The position numbers and the translations under genes are program-made. A model generated the notes under the pieces. The model worked only from the letters and a program-made list of their open reading frames with translations. It did not search any database and was not told the DNA's origin. From Caldisericum sp. (GTDB taxonomy: Bacteria; Caldisericota; Caldisericia; Caldisericales; Caldisericaceae), in assembly GCA_022759145.1 (NCBI GenBank), contig JAEMPV010000028.1, positions 1-32,059 on the forward strand: 32,059 nucleotides of DNA, read 5' to 3'. Positions 15,102 to 32,009 of the stretch are shown piece by piece (position 1 is the stretch's first letter; each line of letters starts with the position of its first letter).

Positions 15102-15104
15102 TCT

Positions 15105-16832
15105 ATGGAACTCGATAGAAGAAAACTTTCTAATGTCATAGATGTAGCGAGAAGAAGAAAAGCCGCTGATGTATTAATAAAGAATGCAAAGATCGTTAAT
15201 GTCTTTAATGAATCAATTGAAGAGGGTAATATTGCAATTGCAGAAGGAATTATTGCGGGAATCGGCAATTACGAAGAAGGAAGCACTATTTATGATGTAA
15301 ATGGAGCATTCGTTGCACCTTCCTTTATAGATTCCCATATGCACATAGAAAGCACAATGCTTATACCAACAGAGTTTGCGAAGGCAGTAGTCCCTCTTGG
15401 AACTACAACTGCTATTGTTGACCCTCATGAAATAGCAAATGTTGCAGGTATTCCTGGAATTCAGTTTATGATAAATGCCTCAAAAGATTTACCTATGGAT
15501 ATTTACTTTATGCTTTCAAGTTGTGTTCCCGCAACTAACCTTGAGACATCTGGTGCAATTCTATACGCAGAAGACCTTGCGATGTTAAAGAATCACGAAA
15601 AGGTTCTTGGTCTTGCCGAGATGATGAATTATCCAGGTGTAATAAATAAAGATCCAGAGATTCTTGATAAAATTCTTCTCTTTAGGGATGGGATAATTGA
15701 CGGTCATTCTCCTACGCTTTCAGGTTATGAACTTAACGCATATTTATCGGCAGGCATTCTTGCTGACCATGAATGTACAACAAAAGAAGAGGCTCTTGAG
15801 AAGTTATCCAAAGGTATGTGGATAATGATGAGAGAAGGTTCTGTTACAAGAGATGTAATGAGCCTATTGCCAGTTTTGAACGATAAAACCAAACACAGAT
15901 TTTTGCTTTGTACTGACGATAAGCATCCAGAAGACCTTATTTCAGAGGGACATTTAAACTATGCAATTAAACTTCTTGTAGAAAATGGTATTCCTTTGCC
16001 TACTGCAGTAAGGCTTGCAACACTTAATCCTTCACTCTTCTTTGGATTCAGAAGAAAGGGCGGTGTTGCACCTGGCTATATTGCAGACCTTGTTGTTTTT
16101 GATAATCTGAATAAAATGAGTCTTGTTTTTAAAGAAGGAGCACTTGTTGCAAAAGATGGAAAGGCTCTTTTTGATGTCGAGGAGCCAAGGCACGATGATG
16201 CAGTTAAGAATACAATAAACCTTAAAGCGGCAACTTTTGAGAAGTTAAGAGTTGCAAATAAAGGCAAAAAGATTAGAGTAATAGGCTTAAGGCACGATTC
16301 AATAGTGACAGATGAATTGATTGTAACTCCAAAAGTTGAAGATGGTTTTGTCGTATCTGATACTGAAAATGATGTTATAAAAATTGCTGTGTTTGAAAGG
16401 CACAAGGCAACAGGCAAAGTCTCCGTCGGTTTTATAAAAGGGCTTGGTTTAAAGAGAGGTGCATTTGCAACCTCAATAGCGCACGATTCTCACAACATAA
16501 TTGTTGCTGGAGAAAATGATAGAGATATGCTTCTTGTTGTAACCCAACTTGAAGCAATAGGAGGAGGAATTGCAATCGCTAAGGACGGTGCTGTCCTTGA
16601 TTATCTTGCTCTTCCATATGGTGGACTAATGACGAATCGTTCAGTTTATGAAGTTGCAGAAGTCCTTGAAAGACTTCATAAGATTGCGCATAATGAACTT
16701 GGTGTAACATATCCAGATCCATTTATGGCGCTTGCCTTTATGCATCTTGCTGTTATTCCAAAACTAAAAATAACTGATTCAGGACTTGTTGATGTTGAAA
16801 AATTCACTTTCGTTGATCTTTTTGTAGATTAG
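15105..16832 (+). CDS. ade: Adenine deaminase
   Basis: Hydrolyses adenine to hypoxanthine and ammonia. The 575-residue length and layout match the bacterial Ade family: amidohydrolase barrel with DSHMHIEST (His78, His80, Glu82), the DPHEIANVAG motif (about 106-115), ILADHECTT and the metal/catalytic CTDDKHP, then the Ade-specific C-terminal domain with GLKRGAFATSIAHDSHNI and GGGIAIAKDG. It starts three bases after the SsnA-like gene; GGAGG lies about 12 bases before the ATG. Together with the convergent BMP nucleoside transporter it supports purine salvage or use of adenine as a nitrogen source. Confidence 0.95.
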   Translation: MELDRRKLSNVIDVARRRKAADVLIKNAKIVNVFNESIEEGNIAIAEGIIAGIGNYEEGSTIYDVNGAFVAPSFIDSHMHIESTMLIPTEFAKAVVPLGTTTAIVDPHEIANVAGIPGIQFMINASKDLPMDIYFMLSSCVPATNLETSGAILYAEDLAMLKNHEKVLGLAEMMNYPGVINKDPEILDKILLFRDGIIDGHSPTLSGYELNAYLSAGILADHECTTKEEALEKLSKGMWIMMREGSVTRDVMSLLPVLNDKTKHRFLLCTDDKHPEDLISEGHLNYAIKLLVENGIPLPTAVRLATLNPSLFFGFRRKGGVAPGYIADLVVFDNLNKMSLVFKEGALVAKDGKALFDVEEPRHDDAVKNTINLKAATFEKLRVANKGKKIRVIGLRHDSIVTDELIVTPKVEDGFVVSDTENDVIKIAVFERHKATGKVSVGFIKGLGLKRGAFATSIAHDSHNIIVAGENDRDMLLVVTQLEAIGGGIAIAKDGAVLDYLALPYGGLMTNRSVYEVAEVLERLHKIAHNELGVTYPDPFMALAFMHLAVIPKLKITDSGLVDVEKFTFVDLFVD

Positions 16833-16843
16833 GAGGTTTTGAA

Positions 16844-18220
16844 GTGCTTTTAAAAAATGCAAACATTGTTACAGATGGAAATAATACAAGAAGAGTCCAT
16901 ATTTTTGTTGAGAACGGTAAAATAGTAAACATTTTTGAAAATAGCATTCCAGAAAATATACCGCAAAATGATGTTATAGATTGCTCAAACTTCATTGTTT
17001 TTCCAGGATTTATTGATGCTCATGTCCACTTTGACGACCCAGGTTACACAGATAGGGAAGATTTTTTAACAGGGACTATGAGTGCAGCTAAAGGTGGAGT
17101 GACAACTGTTGTTGATATGCCGTGTACTTCTATTCCAGAGGTCATTACGAAAGAAAATCTACAATATAAACTTGATATTGTTTCAAAAAAAGCAGTTATT
17201 GATTTTTCTTTTTGGGGAGGCGTTACCCCTGAACAAATCCATTCAGGAGAGTACAAGAAAACTATAAAAGAGTTGAAAGATGAAGGAGTTGTAGGGCTCA
17301 AACTTTACACCATTTCTGGTATGAAATCTTATCCAAGGGTTAATATCGAAGAAATGGCTCTTGTTTTTGACACAATAAGAGAATTGGGATTGGTTGCAGG
17401 AATACACGCTGAAGATTTCGAACTTGTTGATTTTTTTACAAAAAGAGAACTCAGCCTCAACAATTTTGCGGGGAATGCGTGGGCTAAGGGTAGAAATTAT
17501 GAGGCAGAAGCAGTTGCAATTTTAAGAAGCATTGCACTTGCAAAGGAATTTAAGAATAAAGTTCATATTGTTCACCTCTCATCAAAACTTGGTCTCGAGA
17601 TGATTGAAAAAGCAAAGGAAGATGGTATTGACATAACAACAGAGACATGTCCTCATTATCTTGTTTTTAATGAAGATGATCTATCTAAAATAGGTGCAAT
17701 TTTGAAAACTGCTCCTCCTGTACGCAAAAAAGAAGATTCTGAGTATCTCTGGGATGGTCTTAGGAGGGGAACAGTTGACTTTGTAACGACTGACCATGCA
17801 GGCGGAGTCTATCCTGAAGAAAAAAATAAGGAAAGTATTTGGGACAATTATGCTGGAATTCCAGGTGTCCAAACAAGATTTAATGTTATATACACATTTG
17901 GATTTGCAACAGGCATACTAACCTTATCTCAATTAAAGAGAGTTCTATCAGAAAAACCTGCGGAAAGATTTGGGCTAAAAAAGAAAGGCAAAATTGATGT
18001 GGGTTTTGATGCAGATTTTGTGCTTGTTAATCCTTTTGAAAGTTTTATATTTAACGCAAGTGAAGACTTACTTTGTAAAAATAAATACTCGCCTTTTGAT
18101 GGCTTTGTTTTTAAGGGCGTTATTGAGAAAACAATAGTAAGAGGAAATATCGTTTACGAAAAAGATAAGGGTATTGTTGTTCAACAAGGCTACGGTAAAT
18201 TCGTTAAGAGTGAGTTTTAG
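16844..18220 (+). CDS. Cyclic amidohydrolase, allantoinase/hydantoinase-like
   Basis: A 458-residue dihydroorotase-superfamily enzyme opening a cyclic amide ring. Binuclear metal ligands are readable: His60 and His62 in DAHVHFDDPG, carboxylatable Lys153 in GLKLY, His188 in GIHAED, His244 in HIVHLSS and Asp317 in TTDHAGG. The Arg that binds dihydroorotate in PyrC (HxHxRExG) is replaced by Asp, which argues against pyrimidine synthesis. FWGG and DMPCTSIP are allantoinase-like, but the exact ring substrate (allantoin, hydantoin, dihydropyrimidine) is open. It uses a GTG start with AGGAGG at the end of the adenine deaminase gene. It is the last gene before a strong hairpin. Confidence 0.85.
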   Translation: MLLKNANIVTDGNNTRRVHIFVENGKIVNIFENSIPENIPQNDVIDCSNFIVFPGFIDAHVHFDDPGYTDREDFLTGTMSAAKGGVTTVVDMPCTSIPEVITKENLQYKLDIVSKKAVIDFSFWGGVTPEQIHSGEYKKTIKELKDEGVVGLKLYTISGMKSYPRVNIEEMALVFDTIRELGLVAGIHAEDFELVDFFTKRELSLNNFAGNAWAKGRNYEAEAVAILRSIALAKEFKNKVHIVHLSSKLGLEMIEKAKEDGIDITTETCPHYLVFNEDDLSKIGAILKTAPPVRKKEDSEYLWDGLRRGTVDFVTTDHAGGVYPEEKNKESIWDNYAGIPGVQTRFNVIYTFGFATGILTLSQLKRVLSEKPAERFGLKKKGKIDVGFDADFVLVNPFESFIFNASEDLLCKNKYSPFDGFVFKGVIEKTIVRGNIVYEKDKGIVVQQGYGKFVKSEF

Positions 18221-18238
18221 ATTTTGATTGAGTTTTTT

Positions 18239-18271
18239 AAAGGGGGCTTTTTGCCCCCTTTATTTATTTTT
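18239..18271 (+). terminator. Intrinsic terminator of the purine-catabolic operon
   Basis: AAAGGGGGC (18239-18247), a TTTTT loop and GCCCCCTTT (18253-18261) form a 9-bp stem followed by ATTTATTTTT on the plus strand. It lies 18 bases after the cyclic amidohydrolase stop. Transcripts from the opposite strand also cross the stem but meet an A-run after it, so it should terminate mainly plus-strand transcription. Confidence 0.85.
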
Positions 18272-19184
18272 CTCCCTTTATGAAAGGTTCGCCAAGTGCT
18301 TTTGGTGCACCAAGGTGTTTCCTCATTATTTCTCTTGCAGTTATAAGAAGTATTATAAGAGTCACTATATAAGGAGTCATTTTTAGTATTGGCACAGGAA
18401 TTCCTAAAGGTTGTAAAATGTACTGTAGAACATCAACTCCTCCAAATATGTAAGCACCTAATATTGCTCTAAGCGGATCCCACTGTGCAAAAATTGTTAA
18501 AGCGATAACGATCCATCCACGACCACCAGTCATACCTTCAATCCATGATGGCATATATGCTAAAGTTAAGTATGCACCAGCAAAACCAGCAAAGCAACCG
18601 CCTGTGAAAGTTGATAAGTATTTTACAAGTCCAACATTAATTCCAAGAGCATCTGCTGCTTTGGGATTTTCTCCAACTGACCTAATGTTAATTCCCCATC
18701 TTGTTTTGAAGAGTATAAACCACGCAAGGACTGCAAGAATGATGCCTGTGTAAAAAAGAGGGTCCCTATTAAATAATATTGGTCCTATAAATGGAATTTT
18801 TGATAACCATGGGATTGCAACCTCAGAAAATCTTGTAGGAAGAGGTACTCCTATGTAGTTTTTACCAAGCATACCTGCAAGTCCACTTCCAATCATTGCT
18901 ATTGCAAGTCCTGAAAGGGTTTGTATCCCCCTTATGTTGATTGAAACAAAAGCGTGGAGCAGTGCAAGAACTCCTCCTGCAAGTATTCCCGCAAAAAGTC
19001 CTAAAACCAGGTTTTTTGTTGTGTAGGTAACGCTAAATCCTACTATTGCACCTAGTGCCATCATTCCCTCGATACCGAGGTTTAAAATTCCCGAGCGTTC
19101 AGTTATAATCTCGCCAACAGTTCCTAAAAGAAGTGGTGTTCCTGCAACCATTGTCCTTTGAAGGATTGAAATTATAAGATTCAT
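18264..19184 (-). CDS. BMP-type nucleoside ABC transporter permease 2
   Basis: A 306-residue polytopic membrane protein of the BPD_transp_2 family (YufQ/NupQ-like). The opening of the frame, with GTPLLLGTVGEIITERSG then LNLGIEGMMALGA, is characteristic of the second permease of BMP-family importers. About eight hydrophobic segments are visible, including one near 130-160 and the C-terminal IVTLIILLITARE. The conserved cytoplasmic loop reads RSVGENPKAADALGINV. It is last in the transporter operon, four bases after permease 1, with AAGGTGAT before the ATG. It probably pairs with permease 1 to form the channel for purine nucleosides or nucleobases. Confidence 0.92.
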   Translation of the reverse strand: MNLIISILQRTMVAGTPLLLGTVGEIITERSGILNLGIEGMMALGAIVGFSVTYTTKNLVLGLFAGILAGGVLALLHAFVSINIRGIQTLSGLAIAMIGSGLAGMLGKNYIGVPLPTRFSEVAIPWLSKIPFIGPILFNRDPLFYTGIILAVLAWFILFKTRWGINIRSVGENPKAADALGINVGLVKYLSTFTGGCFAGFAGAYLTLAYMPSWIEGMTGGRGWIVIALTIFAQWDPLRAILGAYIFGGVDVLQYILQPLGIPVPILKMTPYIVTLIILLITAREIMRKHLGAPKALGEPFIKGEK

Positions 19185-19188
19185 TTTA

Positions 19189-20256
19189 TCACCTTCTTAT
19201 CTTTATTTTGTATTCTGTAAAGAAGTTGCCAATCATTACAAAGATTAGAATGAATCCGTTAAATGCATTGATCGTTGAGGAAGGAAAGCCAAGCGAAGTT
19301 TGTATTACATCACCGCCAACGAGGATTCCACCAAAGAATAATGCGGAAACTAATGCAAGAATCGGGTTTAGTTGGGCAAGCCACGCAACGATTATAGCAG
19401 TATATCCATAGTCAGAGGAGACCTGTGCAGGGTATGTAAGGTGCCTATGGATACCTGCAACCTCGCCTACTCCAGCAATACCTGCAAGACCGCCTGAAAT
19501 AAGCATCATTATAATTGTCATTTTTACAAAATCGATACCTGAATATTCTGCTGCGTGAGGGTTTTCACCAGCAACCTTTATCTCAAAGCCATATTTTGTT
19601 TTTTCAATGAAGTAATACACTACAACAACCGATATTAAAGCTATAATTAGAGTAATATAACTAATCCTTGTTCCCGGTATCTGTGCTAAGGTTGCGCTTG
19701 GTGGAAAGTTGTCGGTGTAAGGAAAGCCATATTGAGTTTTGCCTTTCCATGGTCCATAGACAAGATATTCTACAAAGTCTTCTGCTATGTAGTTCAACAT
19801 TAAGGTTGCAATTATTTCATTAATTCCAAGTTTAACTTTTAATACAGCAGGAATAAAGCCATATAAAGCACCACCTATGAAGCCAACAATGAACATCAAG
19901 GGTATTGTTGTTATTGCAGAGTGTGTGGGACCATAATTTAACGCAATCCATGTAGACAATGTTGCTCCAATAAGTAGTTGTCCATTTGCACCAATATTCC
20001 AGAACTTTCCTTTAAATGCGACAATAAGCCCTTCCGCAATTAGAAGCAGTGGAATTGCTTTTGTTATTGTTTCTTTTATACCAAATGCAGAGCCAAATGA
20101 ACCCTGAAATATTTTATAGAATGCATAAAATGGGTTTACTCCTCTGAGTAAAAATATAAAACTCGATATAATAACCGCAACAAAAATAGAAAGTAGATAT
20201 ACAGTGGTGGAGTAGCGCTTTGAAACATAACCTCTCTTTTCAATTGAAATATGCAT
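19189..20256 (-). CDS. BMP-type nucleoside ABC transporter permease 1
   Basis: A 355-residue membrane protein of the BPD_transp_2 family (YufP/NupP-like). After a basic N terminus comes a first transmembrane helix (about 18-38), then GVNPFYAFYKIFQGSFGS, KAIPLLLIAEGLIVAFKGKFWNIGANGQ-type permease sequence, GALYGFIPAVLK and the loop KVAGENPHAAEYSGID. AGGAGG stands before the ATG at 20256, ten bases after the ATPase stop. The matching conserved loops in both permeases support a heterodimeric channel. Substrate specificity for nucleosides is inferred from family and from adenine deaminase in the convergent operon. Confidence 0.92.
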   Translation of the reverse strand: MHISIEKRGYVSKRYSTTVYLLSIFVAVIISSFIFLLRGVNPFYAFYKIFQGSFGSAFGIKETITKAIPLLLIAEGLIVAFKGKFWNIGANGQLLIGATLSTWIALNYGPTHSAITTIPLMFIVGFIGGALYGFIPAVLKVKLGINEIIATLMLNYIAEDFVEYLVYGPWKGKTQYGFPYTDNFPPSATLAQIPGTRISYITLIIALISVVVVYYFIEKTKYGFEIKVAGENPHAAEYSGIDFVKMTIIMMLISGGLAGIAGVGEVAGIHRHLTYPAQVSSDYGYTAIIVAWLAQLNPILALVSALFFGGILVGGDVIQTSLGFPSSTINAFNGFILIFVMIGNFFTEYKIKIRR

Positions 20257-20266
20257 CCCTGTCCTC

Positions 20267-21793
20267 CTACATTCTCATAGAACCAGCCATCATCAAGCCA
20301 ATTTCTTCGATGGAAACTTTCTTTGGGTCAACAATTCCCATAAATTCTCCCATAAACATTACCGCAACTCTATCGCTCAGTTGAAGAATTTCCTCAAGAT
20401 CTTCTGATACGAGGAGTATTGCAGATCCTTCTTTTCTCTTCTGCAACAATAATTTTCTTATATACTCTGTTGCAGCAATATCAAGCCCATATGTTGGGTG
20501 TGCTGCTACTATAAAAGTAGATTTTGTTGTCGTCTCTCTTGCAAGAATTAATTTTTGAATATTACCTCCCGATAGAAGCTTTGCTTTCGTTTCTATAGAT
20601 GGTGTTGCAATTGAAAATTCCTTAACAAGTTTAATTGCAAATTCTTTAATTGTTTTATAGTTGAGTATACCTCTATTTGAAAATGGCTCTTTGTAATAGT
20701 CTCTTAACACAGCATTTTCATAGACTGGGAGATTAGGAACAATACCGTATTTAATTCTTTCTTCTGGGATATGTGCAACGCCCATTTCTCCTATCTCACG
20801 GGCTCCTTTATTTTGTATTTCCTTACCATTAATCAAAATCCTTCCTTTTTCAACTCTTCTTAATCCCGTAAGCGCTTCAACTAACTCTCTTTGTCCGTTT
20901 CCTGAGACACCTGCTATTCCAAGAATTTCTCCCTTTCTTACTTCAAAATTCAAATTCTTTATTGCTTTTAATCCTTTATCGTTAAGAACTTCAAGGTTTT
21001 CCACCTTTACAACTACTTCTCCTGGTTTTATATATTCTTTTTCAAGGTTAAAAAGAATTTCTCTACCAACCATCATCTTTGCTAATTCTTCTTTTGTTGC
21101 ATCTTTAGTTGTAGTGGAACCAATTACTTTTCCTTGTCTTAAAACAGTTACTATGCCCCCCAATTCGTAAACTTCTTCAAGTTTGTGTGTAATAAAAATA
21201 ACAGAGTGTCCATTCTTAACAAGATGCTTTATAGTTTTAAAAAGTTCGCTTGCCTCTTGTGGTGTCAAGACTGAAGTTGGTTCATCTAAAATGATAAGTT
21301 TTGCACCTCTCATTAAGGCTTTTAAGATTTCAACTCTTTGCTGCTCTCCTGCAGAAAGTTGCCAGATCTTTGCATCAGGATTCACATGTAATCCAATTTC
21401 GCTACTGTATCTCTCAATCTCTTTTGCAATTTCTTTTGTTGGGTTTAAAAACTTTGTTCCTGAAAGCCCCAGTGCAATATTCTCTGCAACTGTATGGTTT
21501 TCAACTAGCATGAAGTGTTGGTGCACCATACCAATGCCATATTTCATTGCAGTTCTCGGAGAGTCTATGAATACTTTTTTTCCATTTATGTATATTTCTC
21601 CATCATCTGGTTGGTAAATACCATAAATGATGTTCATTAATGTTGTTTTCCCTGCACCATTTTCTCCAAGAAGTGCATGTATTTCACCAGCATTAATCTT
21701 CAGTGAAATTCTGTTGTTTGCAACAACACCAGGGAACTCTTTGTAAATGTCCTTAAGTTCAAGTGATTTGAATTCTGTAACTTTTTCTTCCAA
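20267..21793 (-). CDS. BMP-type nucleoside ABC transporter ATPase (tandem)
   Basis: A 508-residue double ATPase that powers the importer. The first half has Walker A GENGAGKTT (43-51), the Q-loop MVHQHFMLV and signature LSAGEQQRVEILKAL, followed by LIILDEPTSVLT. The second half has the degenerate P-loop GVSGNGQREL typical of this family, AHIPEERIKYGIVP and LLSGGNIQKLILARE. It starts with TTG at 21793; GAGGTGA four bases upstream supports that start, and no ATG lies before the conserved domain. The gene is separated from the binding-protein gene by a hairpin that may lower its expression relative to the lipoprotein. Confidence 0.94.
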   Translation of the reverse strand: MEEKVTEFKSLELKDIYKEFPGVVANNRISLKINAGEIHALLGENGAGKTTLMNIIYGIYQPDDGEIYINGKKVFIDSPRTAMKYGIGMVHQHFMLVENHTVAENIALGLSGTKFLNPTKEIAKEIERYSSEIGLHVNPDAKIWQLSAGEQQRVEILKALMRGAKLIILDEPTSVLTPQEASELFKTIKHLVKNGHSVIFITHKLEEVYELGGIVTVLRQGKVIGSTTTKDATKEELAKMMVGREILFNLEKEYIKPGEVVVKVENLEVLNDKGLKAIKNLNFEVRKGEILGIAGVSGNGQRELVEALTGLRRVEKGRILINGKEIQNKGAREIGEMGVAHIPEERIKYGIVPNLPVYENAVLRDYYKEPFSNRGILNYKTIKEFAIKLVKEFSIATPSIETKAKLLSGGNIQKLILARETTTKSTFIVAAHPTYGLDIAATEYIRKLLLQKRKEGSAILLVSEDLEEILQLSDRVAVMFMGEFMGIVDPKKVSIEEIGLMMAGSMRM

Positions 21794-21818
21794 GTTTTCA
21801 CCTCACTTAATTTAATTG

Positions 21819-21843
21819 AAGGGGGGATTTTTCCTCCCCCCTT
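21819..21843 (-). terminator. Intra-operon hairpin after the lipoprotein gene
   Basis: AAGGGGGGA and TCCCCCCTT form a 9-bp stem around a 7-base loop, 22 bases after the stop of the BMP lipoprotein gene on the minus strand. What follows is CAATTAAATT, not a good U-tract. It is therefore more likely to stabilise the 3' end or cause partial termination, giving more binding protein than ATPase and permease, than to stop transcription fully. Confidence 0.7.
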
Positions 21844-21865
21844 AAAATTCGTTTTTGTTTATCCT

Positions 21866-23065
21866 TTATTTAGGAATTTCGCCTACAACATTATCAACAA
21901 ACCAGTCCATACTCCAGAGCATATCATGAGACGCTCTTTCACCTGGTTTAAGCCTCAAAGTTCCTTTCTGGTCATAGATTGGTCCGGTGAATGGATCAAA
22001 CAGAACAGTTGGTTCACTCATCTGTTCTTTTCTCTTCATAACAAGGTCGTAAACGCTAATCTTTCCAAGGATTGGATCGTTAACAAATTTTGCTTTGAGT
22101 GCGTCTGTGAATTTTGGATTAATTGGTGTATTGAAATCTGCTCCGAGTATGCATGCACCTTCTTTCATTAGCCACCAATAATCCTGGTTGGTCCATGTAT
22201 TGGTGTAGACTCTTCTTAAAATGTCTTCATAAATTGGTTCCCAATCTGCAAGTTGTCCTGATACAACAGTGTCGGGACCATACTGTAACATTGGGCTGTA
22301 GTGGGAGAATGTATAAATTTGCTGTCCTTTCTTTGTGTGTTCCTCACCAACATCGACTACTGCGGTTGAGTCTTCTGTAAATGCTAAGGCGTCCACTCCT
22401 TCGGAAATTAAAGATTCCGCTGCTTCCTTTGCTTTTGCTGGATCATACCATGTGAAAAGCCATCTTACATAAACTTTTGCCTTTGGATTAGTTTCTTTTA
22501 CACCAAGTGCGAATGCGTTGATGTGTCTTACTACTTCAGGTGTTGGCTGTGCTGCAACATAACCGACTTTGTTTGTCTTTGTAAGTGCGCCCGCCATTAG
22601 TCCAGTAAGGTAATAGGCTTGATAAAGTTCCGCGAAGTAGGTTCCGAGGTTTGTATCCCTCTTGTATCCTGAGCAGTGCTCAAAGATAACATTTGGATAC
22701 TTCTTTGCAGCCTCTGCTGTTGCATCCATGTAGCCAAAACTTGTTGTGAATACGATGTCGCACTTTTCTTCGTTTACTAACCTGTCGATGTAACGACCTG
22801 CATCTGTTTCAGGAACTGATTCAATGTAAACTGTTTTAAGCCATGGGAACTTCTGTTCAAGTTGTTTTCTTGCTGCATCATGTGCAGCAGTCCAACCGTA
22901 GTCGCCCGTGGGTCCAACATAGATGAACCCTGCTTTAATTGTCTTTTCCTGTGTTGTTTGGGTTGTGGTTTGTGAGGTTTGCTGTGGCTGACAAGAGACA
23001 GAAGTAAAGATAAGCATCAGTAAAACTAATGCTACTCCTAAAGTCTTTAGTTTGTTTTTTAACAT
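21866..23065 (-). CDS. BMP-family substrate-binding lipoprotein
   Basis: Extracytoplasmic binding component of the nucleoside importer, 399 residues. A basic start (MLKNKLK), a hydrophobic stretch (about 8-20) and a lipobox-like SVSC place lipidated Cys25 at the mature N terminus, followed by a Gln/Thr-rich tether. The BMP domain begins KAGFIYVGPTGDYGW and includes DIVFTTSFGY and a KVGYVAAQPTPEVVRHINAF stretch typical of the family. Ser at lipobox position -3 is less common than Leu. AAAGGAGGTGAAGT before the ATG is an exceptionally strong ribosome site, in keeping with the abundance of such proteins. Its ligand is probably a purine nucleoside, by family and context. Confidence 0.93.
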   Translation of the reverse strand: MLKNKLKTLGVALVLLMLIFTSVSCQPQQTSQTTTQTTQEKTIKAGFIYVGPTGDYGWTAAHDAARKQLEQKFPWLKTVYIESVPETDAGRYIDRLVNEEKCDIVFTTSFGYMDATAEAAKKYPNVIFEHCSGYKRDTNLGTYFAELYQAYYLTGLMAGALTKTNKVGYVAAQPTPEVVRHINAFALGVKETNPKAKVYVRWLFTWYDPAKAKEAAESLISEGVDALAFTEDSTAVVDVGEEHTKKGQQIYTFSHYSPMLQYGPDTVVSGQLADWEPIYEDILRRVYTNTWTNQDYWWLMKEGACILGADFNTPINPKFTDALKAKFVNDPILGKISVYDLVMKRKEQMSEPTVLFDPFTGPIYDQKGTLRLKPGERASHDMLWSMDWFVDNVVGEIPK

Positions 23066-25058: not shown

Positions 25059-26303
25059 ATGAGCGAATTTATACAGAATAATTTGAGCAGAGACGAAAGA
25101 CTTAATCTTATGAGAAAGTTGTTGATAGATATGGACAAGGGTCTTATTTCTCCCCAAGAAGTAAAAGAACGATTCAAAAAGATCTTGGAGAATGTTCACC
25201 CTGCAGAAATCGCAATAATAGAAAATACATTAATTGTTCAAGACCATTTTCCACAGGAAAAGATACATAGGCTTTGCGATGTCCATATAGATATTTTTAG
25301 AGAATCTCTCGAACAAGAGGAAATTAAAGTTAGTAAGGGGCACCCTCTGTATTTGCTTTTTGATGAACACAAAAAAATTGTTGAGTTGCTTGGCAAATTT
25401 ATGCAAATTGCAAACAAAATAGAGCAAAATAAGGACCCAAATTATATCAGGGGAATATTTCAGGAAAACGCCGAAATTTTTGATATGGTTTTCGATATCG
25501 AAAACCATATGGTAAGAGAAGAAAATGCTTTATTCCCATTTTTGGAGAAGCATGATGTTGTTCAACCTCCACAGATTCTTTGGAACGAGCATGACTCACT
25601 TAGAGCAAGATTTAAAGAACTGAAAGGATACTTAGAGAAAAGTAAGAATAATAATCTTACTCAAGAAGAGGTTAATAACTTACCAAATCTCTTAAAGTAT
25701 ATTGTTGATTTGAAGACCTCTCATATTTATAAAGAAAACAAAATTCTTTTCCCAACTGCTCTTGATAAGCTCGAAGAAAATGAGTGGAATAAAGTTTCTG
25801 AAGGAATGATAGAGATTGGTTTTACAAAATTTACTGATAAGGCACTTATCCCTGAAATAAACAAAGAATCATCTGAAAAACAAGCGACCGAAGATAGGTA
25901 TATTTATCTTGATTCGGGTAAATTTACACTTGATGAATTAAATGCCTTTTTTGAAACACTTCCAATCGAAGTTACCTTTATTAACAAGGACGATATAGTC
26001 CAATTCTTTAATAGAGGTGAAAAGAGAATTTTCGTGAGAACAAAGTCGGTTTTGGGAAGAAGTGTGCAAAATTGCCACCCTCCAAAAAGTGTTCATATAG
26101 TTAATAAAATCCTTGAGGATTTTAAGAGTGGAAAAAGAGATTCAGCAGAGTTTTGGATAAATTCGCAAGGAAGACTAATATATATTAGGTATTTTGCTGT
26201 AAGGGATACTTACGGTAATTACCTTGGGACACTTGAAGTTACCCAAGATGTGACTGATATTAAGAAATTAGAAGGAGAAAAAAGAATTTATTCTGAAGAA
26301 TAG
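25059..26303 (+). CDS. DUF438-hemerythrin-PAS protein, probable redox/O2 sensor
   Basis: A 414-residue cytoplasmic protein with three parts. Residues about 10-80 are a DUF438-like helical domain. Residues about 95-240 are a hemerythrin-like bundle with candidate diiron ligands His104 (DEHKK), His150 and Glu154 (ENHMVREE), His178 (NEHDS), His222 and Glu226 (HIYKENKILFP). Residues about 288-405 are a PAS domain with the conserved NCHPPKSVHIV segment. There is no kinase, cyclase or DNA-binding output, so it may bind O2 or NO or a cofactor and act through a partner. It is first in an Fe-S/peroxide-defence operon, which suits an oxygen-related role. A 28-bp palindrome lies within codons 142-151. 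GGAGGTG precedes the ATG. Confidence 0.87.
   Translation: MSEFIQNNLSRDERLNLMRKLLIDMDKGLISPQEVKERFKKILENVHPAEIAIIENTLIVQDHFPQEKIHRLCDVHIDIFRESLEQEEIKVSKGHPLYLLFDEHKKIVELLGKFMQIANKIEQNKDPNYIRGIFQENAEIFDMVFDIENHMVREENALFPFLEKHDVVQPPQILWNEHDSLRARFKELKGYLEKSKNNNLTQEEVNNLPNLLKYIVDLKTSHIYKENKILFPTALDKLEENEWNKVSEGMIEIGFTKFTDKALIPEINKESSEKQATEDRYIYLDSGKFTLDELNAFFETLPIEVTFINKDDIVQFFNRGEKRIFVRTKSVLGRSVQNCHPPKSVHIVNKILEDFKSGKRDSAEFWINSQGRLIYIRYFAVRDTYGNYLGTLEVTQDVTDIKKLEGEKRIYSEE
25483..25510. repeat. 28-bp perfect palindrome inside the hemerythrin coding region
   Basis: ATATGGTTTTCGAT is followed directly by its exact reverse complement, giving 14-bp arms with no spacer. It encodes the second helix region of the hemerythrin bundle, including diiron ligand His150. 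Because of the symmetry both strands read MVFDIENH in one frame. It is embedded in an otherwise normal gene; no function is known to me. Confidence 0.95.
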
Positions 26304-26312
26304 GAGGAAATT

Positions 26313-26618
26313 ATGGTTACAAAAGAAGAAATCATTAACGCTTTAAAGAATGTTTATGACCCAGAAATTCCTATTAACATTGTTGACCTTGGTCTAATTT
26401 ACAAACTTGATGTTGATGAGGAAAATGGTGTTGTAAAGATTTTAATGACTATGACTGCGCCAGGCTGTCCCATGGGAAACTATATCTTAAATGATGTCGA
26501 AATGGTCGTTAGGTCTCTTGACGGTGTAAAAGATGTGCAAATTGAGTTAACATATGATCCGCCATGGTCACCTGATATGATGAGTGAGGAAGCAAAAAAG
26601 GAGTTAGGTTACTTATGA
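26313..26618 (+). CDS. MIP18/SufT family (DUF59) Fe-S assembly protein
   Basis: A 101-residue DUF59 protein related to SufT, PaaD and the eukaryotic MIP18, which help deliver or mature Fe-S clusters. The motif YDPEIPINIVDLGLIY near residue 15-30 and the conserved Cys in MTAPGCPMG (about residue 52) are intact, and the C-terminal DPPWSPDMMSEEAKKELGY is typical. AGGAGG directly follows the upstream stop. Its last four bases overlap the cysteine desulfurase start (ATGA), and the downstream IscU carries a second, degenerate copy of the same domain. Confidence 0.92.
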   Translation: MVTKEEIINALKNVYDPEIPINIVDLGLIYKLDVDEENGVVKILMTMTAPGCPMGNYILNDVEMVVRSLDGVKDVQIELTYDPPWSPDMMSEEAKKELGYL

Positions 26619-27769
26619 TATACTTTGACAACGCAAGTTCAACCAAACCAGATCCAGAAGTAGTAAAAGAAATGAGTGATTTTGCTTTGGAATTTTATGC
26701 AATACCTTCTTCTATATTTTCTCATTCTTTAGGTCAAGCAGTTCAGGACAGGATTCAAGAGGCAAGAGATTATATTGCAAATAAACTTGGCGTTAGTGGA
26801 AATGAAATAGTTTTTACTTCCTCAGGAACGGAATCGAATAACCTTGCTATAAAAGGGTTTGCTTATGCCAATAAAAATAAAGGGAAACATATAGTAACAT
26901 CTAAGATAGAACATATATCGGTAACGGAATCTGTTAAAAGGCTCGAAAGAGAAGGTTTTGAAGTTACTTATGTAGGTGTAGATAAACAGGGTTTTATTGA
27001 TCTCAACGAATTAAAGGATTCTTTGAGAGATGATACAATTTTAGTTACAGTTCAACTTGCAAATCATGAAGTAGGAACAATCCAAAATTTAAAAGAGATT
27101 TCAAAGCTTGTAAAGGAAAAAGGTATAGCACTTCACGTTGATGGAGCAGTTGCTATTCCATACACAAAATTGAATTTAAAAGAAACCGGTATAGATTTGC
27201 TTACAATTTCTCCACATAAATTTTACGGACCAAAAGGGATTGGCATTCTTTACGTAAAGAGCGGAACCAAAATTGAAAAACTTATAGATGGTGGATTCAA
27301 TGAATTTAATTTAAGAGCAGGTCATGAAAATACACCTGCAATAATTGGTGCAAAGAAGGCTTTTGAATTATGGGACGATTCCTTTGTAACACACCTTAGA
27401 GAGATAAAAATGTATCTTTATGAAAGACTTTTGAAAGAAATTCCTGATGTTGAACTTAACGGGACTCTTGATAACTCTCTTCCGCATATACTTAATGTTA
27501 CTTTCAAATACATAGAAGGAGAATCCATTGCTTTAAGGCTCGATTTTGAAGGTGTAGGAGTAACAACAGGTTCTGCTTGCTATAGCAGGAACCTTCAAGC
27601 AAGCCATGTACTTCTTGCTATGGGTAAATCACACGAGGATTCGCATGGTTCAATAAGATTCTCTTTGTCAAAATACAATACGAAAGAAGAAATAGATTAT
27701 ACAATTGAAAAACTAAAAGAAATCGTTGATGATTTAAGAAGAATAAGCCCATTATTAGGAGGTAAGTAA
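26615..27769 (+). CDS. iscS: Cysteine desulfurase, NifS/IscS type
   Basis: PLP enzyme of 384 residues that removes sulfur from cysteine and passes it as persulfide. It opens with IYFDNASSTKPDPEV and has SSGTESNNLAIKG, the PLP Lys202 in SPHKFYGPKG, RAGHENTPAI and catalytic Cys322 in GSACYSRNLQASHVL. The extended loop around Cys322 is of the class I (IscS/NifS) kind. It is translationally coupled on both sides: a four-base overlap with the DUF59 gene and a one-base overlap (TAATG) with iscU. Besides clusters, it can supply the sulfur carrier and E1-like enzyme encoded downstream. Confidence 0.93.
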   Translation: MIYFDNASSTKPDPEVVKEMSDFALEFYAIPSSIFSHSLGQAVQDRIQEARDYIANKLGVSGNEIVFTSSGTESNNLAIKGFAYANKNKGKHIVTSKIEHISVTESVKRLEREGFEVTYVGVDKQGFIDLNELKDSLRDDTILVTVQLANHEVGTIQNLKEISKLVKEKGIALHVDGAVAIPYTKLNLKETGIDLLTISPHKFYGPKGIGILYVKSGTKIEKLIDGGFNEFNLRAGHENTPAIIGAKKAFELWDDSFVTHLREIKMYLYERLLKEIPDVELNGTLDNSLPHILNVTFKYIEGESIALRLDFEGVGVTTGSACYSRNLQASHVLLAMGKSHEDSHGSIRFSLSKYNTKEEIDYTIEKLKEIVDDLRRISPLLGGK

Positions 27770-28404
27770 TGCCAATACCATATACGAAATTAGTTATTGA
27801 ACACTTTAAAAATCCACACAATGTTGGAGAAATTCCTGATGCGGATGTAAAAGTAACTGAGGGAAGCCCTGCGTGTGGTGATATGATAACTCTCTACCTT
27901 AAAATTGATCCAGAAACCAAAAAAATAGTTGATGTTAAGTTTAAATCTTATGGCTGTGCTTCAAACATTGCAACCGCATCAATAATAACAGATCTTGTTA
28001 AGGGGAAAACGGTTGAGGAAGCAAAAAATATAACCTGGAAAGATGCTGCTGAAGCATTGGGAGGTCTTCCTCCTGTAAAAGTGCATTGTTCTGTGCTTGC
28101 AGCAGATGCATTACATTCAGCAGTTGAACTGTATTTAGAGAAAAATGGTTTGGTTAGGGAGAAAGAGTCAACAACGGTTGACAAGGTTTACGAGAGGCTC
28201 TCACATGTTATGAATCCAGAAACAGGGATCGACATTGTTAAATCAAGGATCGTGAAATCTGTTATAGTCAATTCAGGTGTTGTTGAAATTGTCCTTGGAA
28301 TTGGAGAAAACTCTCAATTTGCAGATAATATAAAAGAAGAAATAATAGAAAGACTTCAGTATCTTTGGGATGTAAAAGAGATAAAAGTCATTTTTAAGGA
28401 GTAG
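27769..28404 (+). CDS. iscU: IscU scaffold fused to a degenerate MIP18-like domain
   Basis: A 211-residue protein. Residues 1-130 are an IscU Fe-S scaffold with Cys36 and Asp38 (SPACGDM), Cys63 (YGCASN) and His106-Cys107 (KVHCSVLAADAL). Residues about 140-211 are not the CxxC-bearing Nfu domain. They align by eye with the DUF59 protein encoded two genes upstream: NPETGIDIV against DPEIPINIV, GVVEIVLGI against GVVKILMTM, and DVKEIKVIF against GVKDVQIEL. The conserved Cys of DUF59 is absent. The fusion may tether scaffold and delivery steps. AGGAGG precedes the ATG, which overlaps the desulfurase stop by one base. Confidence 0.9.
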   Translation: MPIPYTKLVIEHFKNPHNVGEIPDADVKVTEGSPACGDMITLYLKIDPETKKIVDVKFKSYGCASNIATASIITDLVKGKTVEEAKNITWKDAAEALGGLPPVKVHCSVLAADALHSAVELYLEKNGLVREKESTTVDKVYERLSHVMNPETGIDIVKSRIVKSVIVNSGVVEIVLGIGENSQFADNIKEEIIERLQYLWDVKEIKVIFKE

Positions 28405-28407
28405 AAT

Positions 28408-28632
28408 ATGACTGTAAAGGTAAAACTTTACGGCGATTATCTCAAGTATGGACCAGAGGAAACATACATAGTTTTACCCGAAAATTCTACTGTAGAAGAT
28501 GTTTTAAATAGATTTAACATCAAGGAAAGAAAGTACATAATAGTTTTGGTTAATCTTAAGAGGGCATGGTTTGAAGATAAATTGAACGATGGAGACATTG
28601 TAAGTGTATTTTCACCTGTAGGAGGTGGTTAA
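28408..28632 (+). CDS. MoaD/ThiS-like ubiquitin-fold sulfur carrier
   Basis: A 74-residue beta-grasp protein ending in SPVGGG, the exposed Gly-Gly tail that an E1-like enzyme adenylates and converts to a thiocarboxylate. The body VKVKLYGDYLKYGPEE, ENSTVEDVLNRFNIK and LNDGDIVSVFSPV follows the MoaD/ThiS layout. The E1-like partner is encoded one small gene downstream and the sulfur donor two genes upstream. No molybdopterin or thiazole synthesis gene is in the window, so the sulfur acceptor is unknown. The stop is directly followed by the YHS gene start. Confidence 0.9.
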   Translation: MTVKVKLYGDYLKYGPEETYIVLPENSTVEDVLNRFNIKERKYIIVLVNLKRAWFEDKLNDGDIVSVFSPVGGG

Positions 28633-28806
28633 ATGGTCCAGGATCCTGTTTGTAAGATGATTATCGAAAAAGAGAAGGCAATTGCAAGTGTTGAGTATAA
28701 GGGTGAAATTTATTACTTTTGTTCTGAAGAGTGTAAAGAAGCGTTTTTAAAAAACCCGGAAAAGTACACTTTAAAACCAAAAAGGCCTGAAAGTTCGGGG
28801 TGTTAA
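28633..28806 (+). CDS. Small YHS-domain metal-binding protein
   Basis: A 57-residue protein I translated directly: MVQDPVCKMIIEKEKAIASV, EYKGEIYYFCSEECKEAFLK, NPEKYTLKPKRPESSGC. It is a nearly bare YHS domain, with the DPVCKM opening, YYFCSEECKEAF and the NPEKY end; Cys7, Cys30 and Cys34 are the likely metal ligands, and there is an extra C-terminal Cys57. YHS domains bind transition metals and occur in metal ATPases, TRASH-like sensors and monooxygenases. Its start follows the sulfur-carrier stop without a gap, using GGAGGTGG inside that gene as the ribosome site, and its stop is one base before the E1-like gene. A metallochaperone or metal-sensing adaptor for the sulfur-carrier pair is a guess. 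Confidence 0.9.
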   Translation: MVQDPVCKMIIEKEKAIASVEYKGEIYYFCSEECKEAFLKNPEKYTLKPKRPESSGC

Positions 28807-28807
28807 G

Positions 28808-29569
28808 ATGCTTTCTAAAGATGAATTAGAAAGATACGATCGGCAAATAAGAATAGATAAGATTGGAGTTGAGGGTCAACAAAAATTGAAAAGTGCAAAT
28901 GTCCTCGTTGTTGGCGCAGGAGGATTAGGGAGTCCTATTCTTTTGTATCTTGGATCTGCAGGTGTTGGGAGAATCGGTATTGTCGACGGCGATGTAGTTT
29001 CGATAACGAATCTTAATAGGCAGATTTTATACAATATGGATGACCTTGGAAAAGAAAAAGTACTTGTTGCAAAAGAAAAAATTGAAAAACTAAATCCAAA
29101 TATAACCGTTGAAGCATATAACACCTGGTTAACAGATGAGGAAATTACCGAAAGAATTTTTAGCAAGTTTAGTGCAGTAATTGACGCAACAGATAATTAC
29201 GAAACAAGGTATCTTATAAATAGAATTGCAGTAAAGTTAAACAAGATTCTTTTTATTGGTGCAGTGGGTAGATTTGTTGGTCAACTGATGGTTGTTATTC
29301 CACACGAAACTGCATGTTTCAATTGCATTTTTCCCGAGAGAGCTAAAGAAATTCTTTTTGAACTAACCGAGGAAAATAGGAATCAAGGCATAATTGGTAC
29401 AACTGTGGGGGTTACAGGTACTCTTGTTGCAAATGAATTTATTAAGTACGCTTTGGGTATTGGGGAAATTCTTAGGAATAAACTTCTGTTGTTTGATGGT
29501 TTGACTAATGAATTTTCAATTATTAACCTTGAGAAAGACCCAAATTGCAAGGTTTGTAGTATAATATAG
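28808..29569 (+). CDS. E1-like ThiF/MoeB adenylyltransferase
   Basis: A 253-residue E1-superfamily enzyme expected to adenylate the C-terminal glycine of the sulfur carrier. It has RYDRQIRIDKIG, the nucleotide-binding GAGGLG (37-42), IVDGDVVSITNLNRQIL (Asp60, Arg71), DATDN (126-130) and two zinc cysteine pairs, Cys170/Cys173 and Cys247/Cys250. Where ThiF/MoeB proteins usually show a conserved Cys in a CxxxGVLG context, this protein reads ENRNQGIIG, so the thiol is missing. It has no rhodanese domain. The start is one base after the YHS stop. ThiF-like or MoeB-like function cannot be decided from sequence. Confidence 0.92.
   Translation: MLSKDELERYDRQIRIDKIGVEGQQKLKSANVLVVGAGGLGSPILLYLGSAGVGRIGIVDGDVVSITNLNRQILYNMDDLGKEKVLVAKEKIEKLNPNITVEAYNTWLTDEEITERIFSKFSAVIDATDNYETRYLINRIAVKLNKILFIGAVGRFVGQLMVVIPHETACFNCIFPERAKEILFELTEENRNQGIIGTTVGVTGTLVANEFIKYALGIGEILRNKLLLFDGLTNEFSIINLEKDPNCKVCSII
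29560..29565 (+). promoter_or_regulatory. Possible internal -10 box for rubrerythrin
   Basis: A perfect TATAAT overlaps the last codons of the E1-like gene, 44 bases before the rubrerythrin ATG. No convincing -35 element lies 16-18 bases upstream. Separate, stronger expression of the peroxide-defence genes would make sense, but this rests on one hexamer in AT-rich DNA. Confidence 0.35.
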
Positions 29570-29608: not shown

Positions 29609-30112
29609 ATGAGACAAATGACAGAAAAGAGTTTGCGTGAAGCATTTGCAGGTGAATCTCAGGCACACATGAAGTATCTAATCTTTGCAGAGCAAGCTGA
29701 GAAAGAGGGGTTACACGATGTAGCAAGGCTTTTTAGGGCGATTTCTTTTGCTGAGCAGGTTCATGCTACAAATCACTTTAAGGCATTGATGGAATTAAAG
29801 AACACTTCGGAGAATTTGCAATCTGCATGGGGTGGGGAGAATTTTGAAATCGAAGAAATGTATCCTGCCTATAATGCAATTGCAAGTTTACAGGATGAGA
29901 AAGATGCTATTAGGTCGATTCATTTTGCCCTTTCAGCAGAAAAAATCCATAGAGAACTTTATGCAAACACAAAAGAGAAACTTGATAAAGGTGAAGAGGT
30001 TAAATTTGATAAGATTTATATTTGCCCTGTTTGTGGATATACCGTAGTAGGAGAGGCACCCGAACAGTGCCCTATTTGTGGAGCACCTAAAAGTGCTTTT
30101 AAAGAATTTTAA
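29609..30112 (+). CDS. Rubrerythrin
   Basis: A 167-residue non-haem iron peroxidase that reduces hydrogen peroxide in anaerobes. The diiron ferritin-like domain (1-135) includes FAGESQAHMKY (Glu16, His20), SFAEQVHATNHF (Glu49, His52) and SAEKIHRELY. The C-terminal rubredoxin domain has CPVCG and CPICG. The open frame runs back to a TTG at 29591, and there is an ATG at 29603, but AAAGGAGG (29594-29601) lies seven bases before the ATG at 29609, the sensible start. Electrons probably arrive from the rubredoxin and the flavoprotein encoded downstream. Confidence 0.95.
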   Translation: MRQMTEKSLREAFAGESQAHMKYLIFAEQAEKEGLHDVARLFRAISFAEQVHATNHFKALMELKNTSENLQSAWGGENFEIEEMYPAYNAIASLQDEKDAIRSIHFALSAEKIHRELYANTKEKLDKGEEVKFDKIYICPVCGYTVVGEAPEQCPICGAPKSAFKEF

Positions 30113-30130
30113 AATTTAAAGGAGGCTAAA

Positions 30131-30289
30131 ATGAAAAAGTACAAATGCATGGTTTGTGGGTACATTTATGACCCAGAAGTTGGTGATGACACGCAGGATA
30201 TTCCTGCAGGAACACCTTTTGAGGATTTACCAGAAGACTGGACTTGCCCTGTTTGTGGAGCAACAAAAGATCAGTTCGAGGAGATTTAA
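30131..30289 (+). CDS. Rubredoxin
   Basis: A 52-residue electron carrier, translated directly as [52 protein letters not shown]. The four iron-binding cysteines are Cys6, Cys9, Cys39 and Cys42 in the two CxxCG knuckles, and [20 protein letters not shown] is canonical. GGAGG stands before the ATG. It lies between its likely electron acceptor, rubrerythrin, and the FAD/NADH oxidoreductase gene two positions on, giving a complete NADH-to-peroxide chain in one operon. Confidence 0.97.
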
Positions 30290-30291
30290 AT

Positions 30292-30780
30292 ATGAATGAT
30301 GTGTTAGAAGTTCTCAAGGCAGCAATGGAAGTAGAACTTAATGGTATTAATCTCTATAAGACTGCAGCGGAGAAAACAGAAGACAAGCAGGCAAAAGAAG
30401 TATTTCTCTTCCTTGCGCAAGAAGAAGGAAAGCACTATAAATACCTTAAGGACTTACATGATGCAATAAAAAATAAGTCTGATTTTGTTGTGGATATTCC
30501 AAAACCTCAAATGACATTTAAAAGAATATTTTCTGAAGACTTTTTGAATAATCTCAAGGGCAAAAATTTTGAGTTCTCTGCGATTTCAACAGGAATGATT
30601 TTAGAGAAAAATTCTGTTCTTTTCTATAAGGAACAGGCAGAGAGAGCGGAGGATCCAAAGGTCAAGTATCTATTTGAAGAATTGATGAAATGGGAAGAGG
30701 AGCATCTTAATATGCTCACAAACGAATACAATGACCTCAAGGAAAGATTCTGGGAGGTTAATGATTTCTCACCATTTTAA
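30292..30780 (+). CDS. Ferritin-like diiron protein without rubredoxin domain
   Basis: A 162-residue four-helix protein of the ferritin-like/rubrerythrin-related superfamily. Helices carry AAMEVELNGINLYK, AQEEGKHYKYLKD, ISTGMILEKNSVLFYKEQAE and LMKWEEEHLNML, supplying Glu and ExxH ligands of a diiron site. It lacks the C-terminal rubredoxin cysteines of the rubrerythrin encoded two genes upstream. The frame is open back to 30244, inside the rubredoxin gene, but GAGGAG before the ATG at 30292 and the homologous start of helix 1 favour 30292. A peroxidase, oxidase or iron-handling role is inferred from the operon. Confidence 0.9.
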   Translation: MNDVLEVLKAAMEVELNGINLYKTAAEKTEDKQAKEVFLFLAQEEGKHYKYLKDLHDAIKNKSDFVVDIPKPQMTFKRIFSEDFLNNLKGKNFEFSAISTGMILEKNSVLFYKEQAERAEDPKVKYLFEELMKWEEEHLNMLTNEYNDLKERFWEVNDFSPF

Positions 30781-30794
30781 GGAAGGTGAATAAA

Positions 30795-32009
30795 GTGATT
30801 TATGCAATTATAGGATTAGGAGTTGCGGGAGTAACTGCCGCAAAAACAATAAGGCAATTAGATCCAAAGGGTGAAATCCATATATTCTCTGAGGAGCCGA
30901 CACTGTATTACCCGAGGCCAAAACTTTTTGAAGTCATTCGCGAAGAAATTCGTGCACGAGACCTGTACTTTTACGACTCAATGTGGTATGAAGAAAGAGA
31001 TATAAAACTGCATCTCGGCATAAAGGTTCGCAAAGTTGATCCGAAAGAACACCTACTTTTGTTTGATATGGGCGGTAGTTTTGCGTATGATAAACTTCTT
31101 ATTGCTAATGGTGCCTCAAGTTTTGTTCCTCCAATTAAAGGCGTTTATACTGAAGGGGTTTTTACACTAAGGAACCTGAGTGACGCTTTTGCAATCAGAA
31201 GACATTCCTTTATGATCGGAAACGACAAGCCTGTTGCAGTGATTGGTGGTGGTGTTTTGGGATTGGAAGCGGCTTACTCATTTCTTAAAAACAAATTAAA
31301 GCCTGTCGTTTTAGAGGGTGGACCATATCTATTACCAAGACAACTCGATCAGGAAGGAGCGAAGATTCTTAAAGGAATATTGATGAATTGGGGAATTGGT
31401 ATCTTGGAAAATGTAAAGATTGAAGAAATAGTCGGGACTAACAATGTTGAAAAAGTAGTATTAGGCGATGGAACGGTTGTTCCTGCAGAAATGGTTCTTC
31501 TTTCTACGGGTGTCCGACCGAATACAGAACTTCTTGAATTATCAAATCTTCCTTTTAATAGAGGTGCTCTTGTAGATTCTTATATGCAGGTTGCCGAGGA
31601 TATATTTGCAGCAGGTGATATTGCTGAATACAACGGAACTGTATATGGTATTATCCCTCCTGCAATTGAACAAGCAACAATTTCAGGAACAAACATGGTT
31701 AAAGACAGGTCGATGGAATACAAAGGTTCAGTTCCCTCTAACACATTAAAAGTTGTAGGGCTTGATCTTACATCTGTTGGTCTTGTTAATCCAAAAGAAG
31801 AAGGTTATGAGGTAATTAGGGCAAGTGATGAATCATCCGGCAAATACAGGAAGGTAGTTTTAAAGGATAACAAAGTTGTTGGTGTTATTGTCCTTGGTAT
31901 AAAAGAAGCAAATGCAGCAAATAAACTTGTATCAAAACAAGCAGATGTAAGTGAGTACAAGGACAAGTTAAGTGACATAAACTTTTCTTTAAAGGAAATA
32001 AAAGTTTAA
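30795..32009 (+). CDS. FAD/NADH oxidoreductase, rubredoxin-reductase-like
   Basis: A 404-residue pyridine nucleotide-disulfide-type flavoprotein of the NADH:rubredoxin oxidoreductase / nitrite reductase N-domain group. It has the FAD Rossmann motif GLGVAG (7-12), FSEEPTLYYPRPKL, the NAD-binding VIGGGVLGLEAA (about 150), STGVRPNTELL and the FAD ribityl motif FAAGDIAEYNG. No redox CxxC is present, so it is not a disulfide reductase. Electrons from NADH probably pass to the rubredoxin encoded upstream. A GTG at 30786 is in frame, but AGGTGA five bases before the GTG at 30795 makes that the better start, the same arrangement seen at pgi. Confidence 0.9.
   Translation: MIYAIIGLGVAGVTAAKTIRQLDPKGEIHIFSEEPTLYYPRPKLFEVIREEIRARDLYFYDSMWYEERDIKLHLGIKVRKVDPKEHLLLFDMGGSFAYDKLLIANGASSFVPPIKGVYTEGVFTLRNLSDAFAIRRHSFMIGNDKPVAVIGGGVLGLEAAYSFLKNKLKPVVLEGGPYLLPRQLDQEGAKILKGILMNWGIGILENVKIEEIVGTNNVEKVVLGDGTVVPAEMVLLSTGVRPNTELLELSNLPFNRGALVDSYMQVAEDIFAAGDIAEYNGTVYGIIPPAIEQATISGTNMVKDRSMEYKGSVPSNTLKVVGLDLTSVGLVNPKEEGYEVIRASDESSGKYRKVVLKDNKVVGVIVLGIKEANAANKLVSKQADVSEYKDKLSDINFSLKEIKV

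Follow-up and report, generated by a model that had tools for sequence, protein, structure and literature searches.

The stretch of DNA analysed here (the window; 32,059 nucleotides) belongs to a genome of the heat-loving bacterium Caldisericum, 1.62 Mb in size and 99% complete (G000). Three adjoining genes on its + strand encode a 74-aa beta-grasp sulfur carrier of ThiS/TtuB size (28408..28632; Pfam ThiS, 1.6e-10), a 57-aa YHS protein of an E1-linked subfamily (28633..28806; Pfam YHS, 4.1e-19) and a 253-aa E1 adenylyltransferase of the ThiF/MoeB type (28808..29569; Pfam ThiF, 3.1e-76). They are separated by 0 and 1 nt, just as a first-pass annotation of this DNA had described them. Their position straight after genes for a cysteine desulfurase and IscU is likewise confirmed, with two refinements. 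The 'IscU' gene (27769..28404, +), which ends 3 nt before the carrier gene, is a single ORF encoding a 211-aa fusion of IscU (Pfam NifU_N, 1.7e-44) with a DUF59 domain (FeS_assembly_P, 3.8e-11), and a separate gene for a 101-aa, SufT-like DUF59 protein, an Fe-S assembly accessory protein (26313..26618, +; FeS_assembly_P, 7e-22), lies 5' of the desulfurase gene. The fusion recurs in relatives. The product of the stand-alone DUF59 gene matches NCBIfam SUF_assoc at 1.3e-37, which is under that model's cut-off, and shows 74-95% identity in relatives, where the gene order is kept. The desulfurase itself (26615..27769, +; 384 aa) is of the NifS/IscS type (NCBIfam FeS_nifS, 1.4e-127; Aminotran_5, 9e-77), carries its active-site cysteine within the motif TTGSACYS, and is the probable sulfur source of the cluster.

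These genes form part of a longer run that starts with a DUF438/hemerythrin/PAS gene (25059-26303) and continues 3' of E1 with genes for rubrerythrin, rubredoxin, a ferritin-like protein and an NAD(P)H-rubredoxin reductase-like enzyme (29609-32009). Gaps over the whole run are between -4 and 39 nt. Plain ribosome-binding sites precede almost all of the genes, and that of the YHS gene falls within the Gly-Gly-Gly codons of the carrier. By this layout the carrier, YHS and E1 genes are co-transcribed. Comparison with two congeners gave pS values of 0.6-0.8 against pN values of 0.06-0.14 for these three, which argues that they are real genes under strong purifying selection. The same flanking genes surround the cluster across the genus, giving it an oxidative-stress setting. 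Elsewhere in the window (13779-23065), amidohydrolase genes (adenine deaminase- and dihydropyrimidinase-like by reading) accompany a BMP-type nucleoside ABC transporter, which suggests nucleobase salvage.

The E1 contains four cysteines, all of them in two CxxC zinc pairs, and its nucleotide-binding glycines are present (cysteine map and alignment); neither a rhodanese domain nor any further cysteine is found in its sequence. An enzyme so built would need another protein, one bearing a persulfide, to supply the sulfur. The genome encodes no other true ThiF/MoeB-family protein (one full match, with two more below the cut-off), and three Gly-Gly carriers with different partners. The carrier of the window ends in FSPVGGG; a MoaD on contig C4 is encoded directly 5' of MoaE; and the third, on contig C24, has the tail FFPPDGGG and adjoins a cation ATPase. 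This third type, 95 aa in length, has a cation P-type ATPase as its constant neighbour in both Caldisericum genomes where it was seen (L009:9468-9755, L159:6290-6577). A fourth ThiS match covers a short segment inside a RelA/SpoT-like protein.

As the only E1 of the genome, the enzyme would also have to serve the MoaD beside MoaE, and it probably serves tRNA thiolation too: contig C93 encodes a TtuA-like protein whose best match, over its full length, is tRNA-5-methyluridine(54) 2-sulfurtransferase, at 258 bits against a model cut-off of 450. The first-pass annotation had reported that thiamine, molybdopterin and tRNA-thiolation genes were absent nearby, had concluded that the usual acceptors were not indicated, and had suggested a possible sulfur-transfer module outside the known routes. 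The absence holds inside the window (by its ORFs, with the upstream part read by eye) and does not extend to the genome, where MoaD-MoaE and TtuA are encoded on other contigs; with them the conclusion about acceptors falls, as does the picture of a separate module, since molybdopterin synthesis would depend on this E1 as well. That annotation had also named a reading that would overturn it, namely that carrier and E1 are the only thiamine or molybdenum cofactor (Moco) pair of the genome, with YHS not conserved beside them. Half of this is true, in that there is no second E1; YHS is nevertheless conserved beside E1 (see below), and the carrier is not the MoaD. No MoaE or Moco genes adjoin the window carrier, and the partner of MoaE is the carrier on C4, so we rejected a MoaD-MoeB pair. 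We likewise rejected a thiamine (ThiS-ThiF) role, as there is no real ThiG in the phylum; the ThiG search of the window genome returned partial matches alone (profile positions 169-224, in a 299-aa frame that is PdxS-like). Most simply, then, several carriers would share this E1 as their hub, as they do TtuC in Thermus or UbaA in archaea.

From gene content and order, conservation and the cysteine map we can propose how such a hub might work, and we consider it reasonably probable that the cluster works as a sulfur-transfer hub like those of TtuC and UbaA, fed by cysteine, with one E1 for all carriers and YHS as a partner of that E1. NifS would draw sulfur from cysteine as a persulfide and feed two branches, of which the first would supply Fe-S cluster assembly on the IscU-DUF59 scaffold and the second would yield C-terminal thiocarboxylates on Gly-Gly carriers. 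In the second branch, the single E1 would adenylate the tails of the window carrier, the MoaD beside MoaE and the third carrier, and a separate persulfide protein would deliver sulfur to the carrier adenylate, its source most obviously being NifS, whose gene lies a short way upstream. The acceptors in this genome would likely include molybdopterin or tungstopterin, reached through MoaD-MoaE, and that of the 74-aa, ThiS-sized carrier would most probably be the tRNA 2-thiolase TtuA. The YHS protein, for its part, is a lineage-specific partner of E1 and most likely helps or controls the loading of sulfur by means of its metal site, its terminal cysteine or both.

By its sequence, the window carrier belongs to a subfamily distinct from the MoaD-type carriers of the same genomes. 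An alignment of nine window-type carriers (A1) spans 74 residues and has 25 columns without variation, and the window carrier shares 18-37% identity with the other carriers compared; its nearest solved relatives are MoaD, SAMP2 and PF1061. A strict pattern, which distant relatives may escape, matched the subfamily in Caldisericota/Caldisericaceae records alone among 84,980 genomes. In nine genomes (G000, G009, G010, G012, G013, G017, G018, G020 and G022) its gene lies directly 3' of the IscU-DUF59 gene. TtuA is absent from six near-complete genomes that keep the carrier (G012, G013, G017, G018, G020 and G022), and therefore is not its constant acceptor; the tight tie to NifS-IscU-DUF59 points to another or an additional target. 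None of the known acceptors searched for fits all carrier-bearing genomes.

One candidate for that target is suggested by four relatives (G013, G018, G020 and G022) in which CysE and CysK genes come after the carrier, in G013 within the order DUF59-NifS-IscUDUF59-carrier-CysE-CysK-YHS-E1: as in the CysO system, the carrier thiocarboxylate could be the sulfur donor of a cysteine synthase. We regard this as very improbable. By its score (404 bits, over the cut-off) the synthase is a CysK and not a CysM, the Prok-JAB protease of the Mec+ type needed for release has no match in the window genome (PF14464), and a desulfurase-fed carrier that makes cysteine would run a futile cycle, whereas CysE-CysK more simply feeds cysteine to NifS. 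Cysteine synthase is, moreover, absent from carrier-bearing G012 and G017, so that, together with the missing JAMM match, a CysO-type function was rejected as the constant role of the carrier. G013 also has the fullest cluster that we saw (L045:3721-8612), made up of DUF59, NifS, IscU-DUF59, carrier, CysE, CysK, YHS and E1 genes; directly 5' of it are another NifS gene and a short gene resembling IscU.

The IscU-DUF59 scaffold is the most constant partner of the carrier seen, being encoded directly 5' of it in all nine genomes listed above, which raises the possibility that the thiocarboxylate gives sulfur straight to the scaffold. G017 fits such direct donation, since it keeps carrier and E1 and yet shows no TtuA, MoaE, ThiG or cysteine synthase, and Prok-JAB matches below the cut-off only. 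We nonetheless hold it to be unlikely, because NifS is able to feed IscU directly and because the carrier of G015 sits outside such a cluster. We know of no described system in which a carrier thiocarboxylate hands sulfur to an Fe-S scaffold.

To return to the favoured reading, a hub in which YHS is a partner of E1, its YHS component can be followed through the phylum. The E1 orthologous group was found in 14 of 18 Caldisericaceae genomes (54 phylum genomes were searched), and the conservation check suggested by the first-pass annotation had a positive outcome: YHS lies directly 5' of E1 at seven of the 14 Caldisericaceae E1 loci, in four genera (G000 and its genus-mate G009, the sister genome G010, and G012, G013, G014 and G007). 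A carrier is upstream of YHS-E1 at six of these seven loci, and the strict triplet occurs at four (G000, G009, G010 and G012). Of the others, G013 has the carrier before CysE-CysK-YHS-E1, and in G014 the carrier 5' of YHS-E1 is an N-terminally broken copy. The G014 copy, on two overlapping contig ends (L186/L187), lacks its N-terminal half and adjoins pst-phoU phosphate-transport genes; it is either a broken gene or an assembly fault. In G007 (L047:5627-8545), genes for DUF59, an ACR3-like transporter (SBF family), YHS, E1 and a tungsten-type MoaD follow one another; this MoaD-type carrier, 3' of E1, is longer than the window carrier and different from it, and the radical-SAM gene behind it resembles a tungsten-enzyme maturase identified in G016. 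Because YHS-E1 stands here beside another carrier, YHS evidently goes with E1 and not with the window-type carrier.

Seven Caldisericaceae genomes (G016, G017 and five of genus g9) have the E1 without an adjoining YHS, so YHS is not essential to the hub. On the E1 tree, in which several forks are weakly supported, the YHS label takes at least three changes, compatible with one gain followed by losses. A pairing beyond the Caldisericaceae was looked for by tblastn and rejected: none of 63 fetched YHS loci, which represent about 49 distinct places, most of them outside the phylum, had an E1 within the DNA retrieved around it. Heavy-metal ATPases were found at many of these roughly 49 places.

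The seven E1-linked YHS proteins form a subfamily of their own. A model built from them gives its members 115-124 bits, whereas no other YHS in the 386 genomes scores above 68 bits, a gap that sets them apart. They have the motif DPVCK, while the paralogues beside P-type ATPases (G009, G013 and G017) start with DPVCGM. All seven end in a cysteine (Cys57, within PESSGC, in the window protein), placed in a PE[NSD]S[GS]C tail behind a variable linker, with IE for PE in one of them. This cysteine is missing from the paralogues of G009 and G017 and from nearly all other YHS proteins of the phylum, the single exception being the CopA-linked copy of G013, which ends in KGCC. The four residues of the metal site, D4, C7, C30 and C34, are also invariant (alignment A3). 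As the canonical YHS/TRASH site consists of an Asp and three Cys (PMC4626032), the site is complete without Cys57. An AlphaFold model of the protein has low confidence (pLDDT 64) and was set aside. Among the papers listed by our literature search, none joined YHS with ThiF or with sulfur carriers.

What this partner contributes can be read in two ways, depending on which of its two cysteine features is put first. If it is the tail, YHS may be a persulfide relay comparable to TusA or a rhodanese, with Cys57 taking the persulfide of NifS and handing it to the carrier adenylate on E1, and the YHS fold serving for docking and as a metal-controlled switch. This is a possible reading, which we hold tentatively. 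An E1 with neither a free cysteine nor a rhodanese domain would have use for it, and Cys57, invariant in all seven proteins, nearly confined to the E1-linked subfamily and dispensable for the metal site, would be well suited; E1s without rhodanese domains have been predicted to use a small cysteine protein, SirA (PMC1779556), and in E. coli TusA relays sulfur to MoaD (PMC5372717). A loose parallel comes from family f3 of the same class, where 12 of 12 intact E1s (L025-L035, L037) themselves bear a C-terminal extension whose last residues are QSSC, QNGC or QTSC and which resembles the cysteine tail of the E1-linked YHS proteins. However, TtuC cooperates directly with the cysteine desulfurase (PMC3980101), and the step is evidently possible without YHS, as the YHS-less Caldisericaceae E1s have no cysteine tail and, contrary to the idea that they compensate, no catalytic-loop cysteine in the alignment. 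Cys57 could equally be an additional metal ligand.

If it is the metal site that matters, YHS might instead act as a sensor or guard. On binding copper or some other soft metal it would, during metal stress, either inhibit the E1/NifS step or protect it, and so tie thiocarboxylate supply to metal status. D4, C7, C30 and C34 match the copper-responsive YHS of the M. phlei adenylyl cyclase (PMC4626032), and other YHS proteins in these genomes adjoin heavy-metal ATPases. Two relatives provide neighbourhoods of the same flavour: the YHS-E1 pair of G007 comes after the ACR3-like arsenite transporter, and G015 (L150:5818-9546) has, on one strand, a CsoR-type repressor, a P-type ATPase, a window-type carrier and an ACR3 arsenite transporter, likely a metal-resistance operon. 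Against this, such a neighbourhood is seen in just these two, G015 has no YHS match, and the window cluster is without a metal transporter or metal regulator; we think a sensor or guard conceivable, though short of probable. The first-pass annotation had proposed a thiocarboxylate step tied to metal handling. Such a tie may exist, and its basis comprises the intact metal-site motif and the two metal-efflux neighbourhoods in relatives, so that we treat it as inferred. A fusion of the two ideas, in which YHS with its terminal cysteine is a metal-responsive persulfide donor dedicated to E1, in place of TusA or a rhodanese domain, and the carrier feeds a new acceptor, possibly IscU-DUF59, strikes us as rather unlikely.

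The sulfur hub is of a known kind; what sets it apart is its lineage-specific YHS partner and a carrier whose final target would be a further one. The sulfur supply of rhodanese-less E1 enzymes is settled only in part, and a YHS protein encoded beside the only E1 of its lineage, with a terminal cysteine that is rare in copper-ATPase YHS proteins, offers a concrete candidate that is cheap to examine. G017, which keeps carrier and E1 and has none of the known acceptors searched for, would be a good genome in which to look for a thiocarboxylate acceptor of a kind not yet described.

Among known systems, the closest is the TtuB-TtuC-TtuA system of Thermus. In T. thermophilus, which has no other E1, TtuC activates the carriers TtuB, MoaD and ThiS, and these are thiocarboxylated by a cysteine desulfurase; it has been suggested in a review of the Thermus system that an unidentified rhodanese-like protein might take part (PMC3980101). 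Caldisericum shares with it one E1 for several carriers, a desulfurase source, a short, ThiS-sized carrier and TtuA in the genome, but its carrier and E1 genes lie with those for NifS and IscU-DUF59 and not with the TtuA gene, YHS is an extra component, there is no ThiG, and several Caldisericaceae keep the carrier without TtuA. The archaeal systems, UblA/UblB with the E1 TK2117 in T. kodakarensis (PMC11323500) and UbaA-SAMP in Haloferax, resemble it in having one E1 for three carriers, and in tungsto- or molybdopterin and tRNA thiolation as acceptors; in contrast, the system described here is bacterial, and its E1 gene adjoins those for desulfurase, IscU-DUF59 and YHS. With the mycobacterial CysO-CysM-Mec+ system and the cysteine-synthase operons of Iyer et al. 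2006 (PMC1779556) it has in common a carrier encoded beside cysteine synthase in four relatives. It differs in that the synthase is CysK in place of CysM, the window genome gives no match to a JAMM protease, the E1 is without rhodanese and the carrier persists where cysteine synthase has been lost. Finally, the YHS protein has the Asp and three Cys motif, the size and the fold family of the YHS/TRASH proteins of copper ATPase loci, and is distinguished from them as a subfamily that adjoins E1, with DPVCK for DPVCG and an invariant C-terminal cysteine in E[NSD]S[GS]C.
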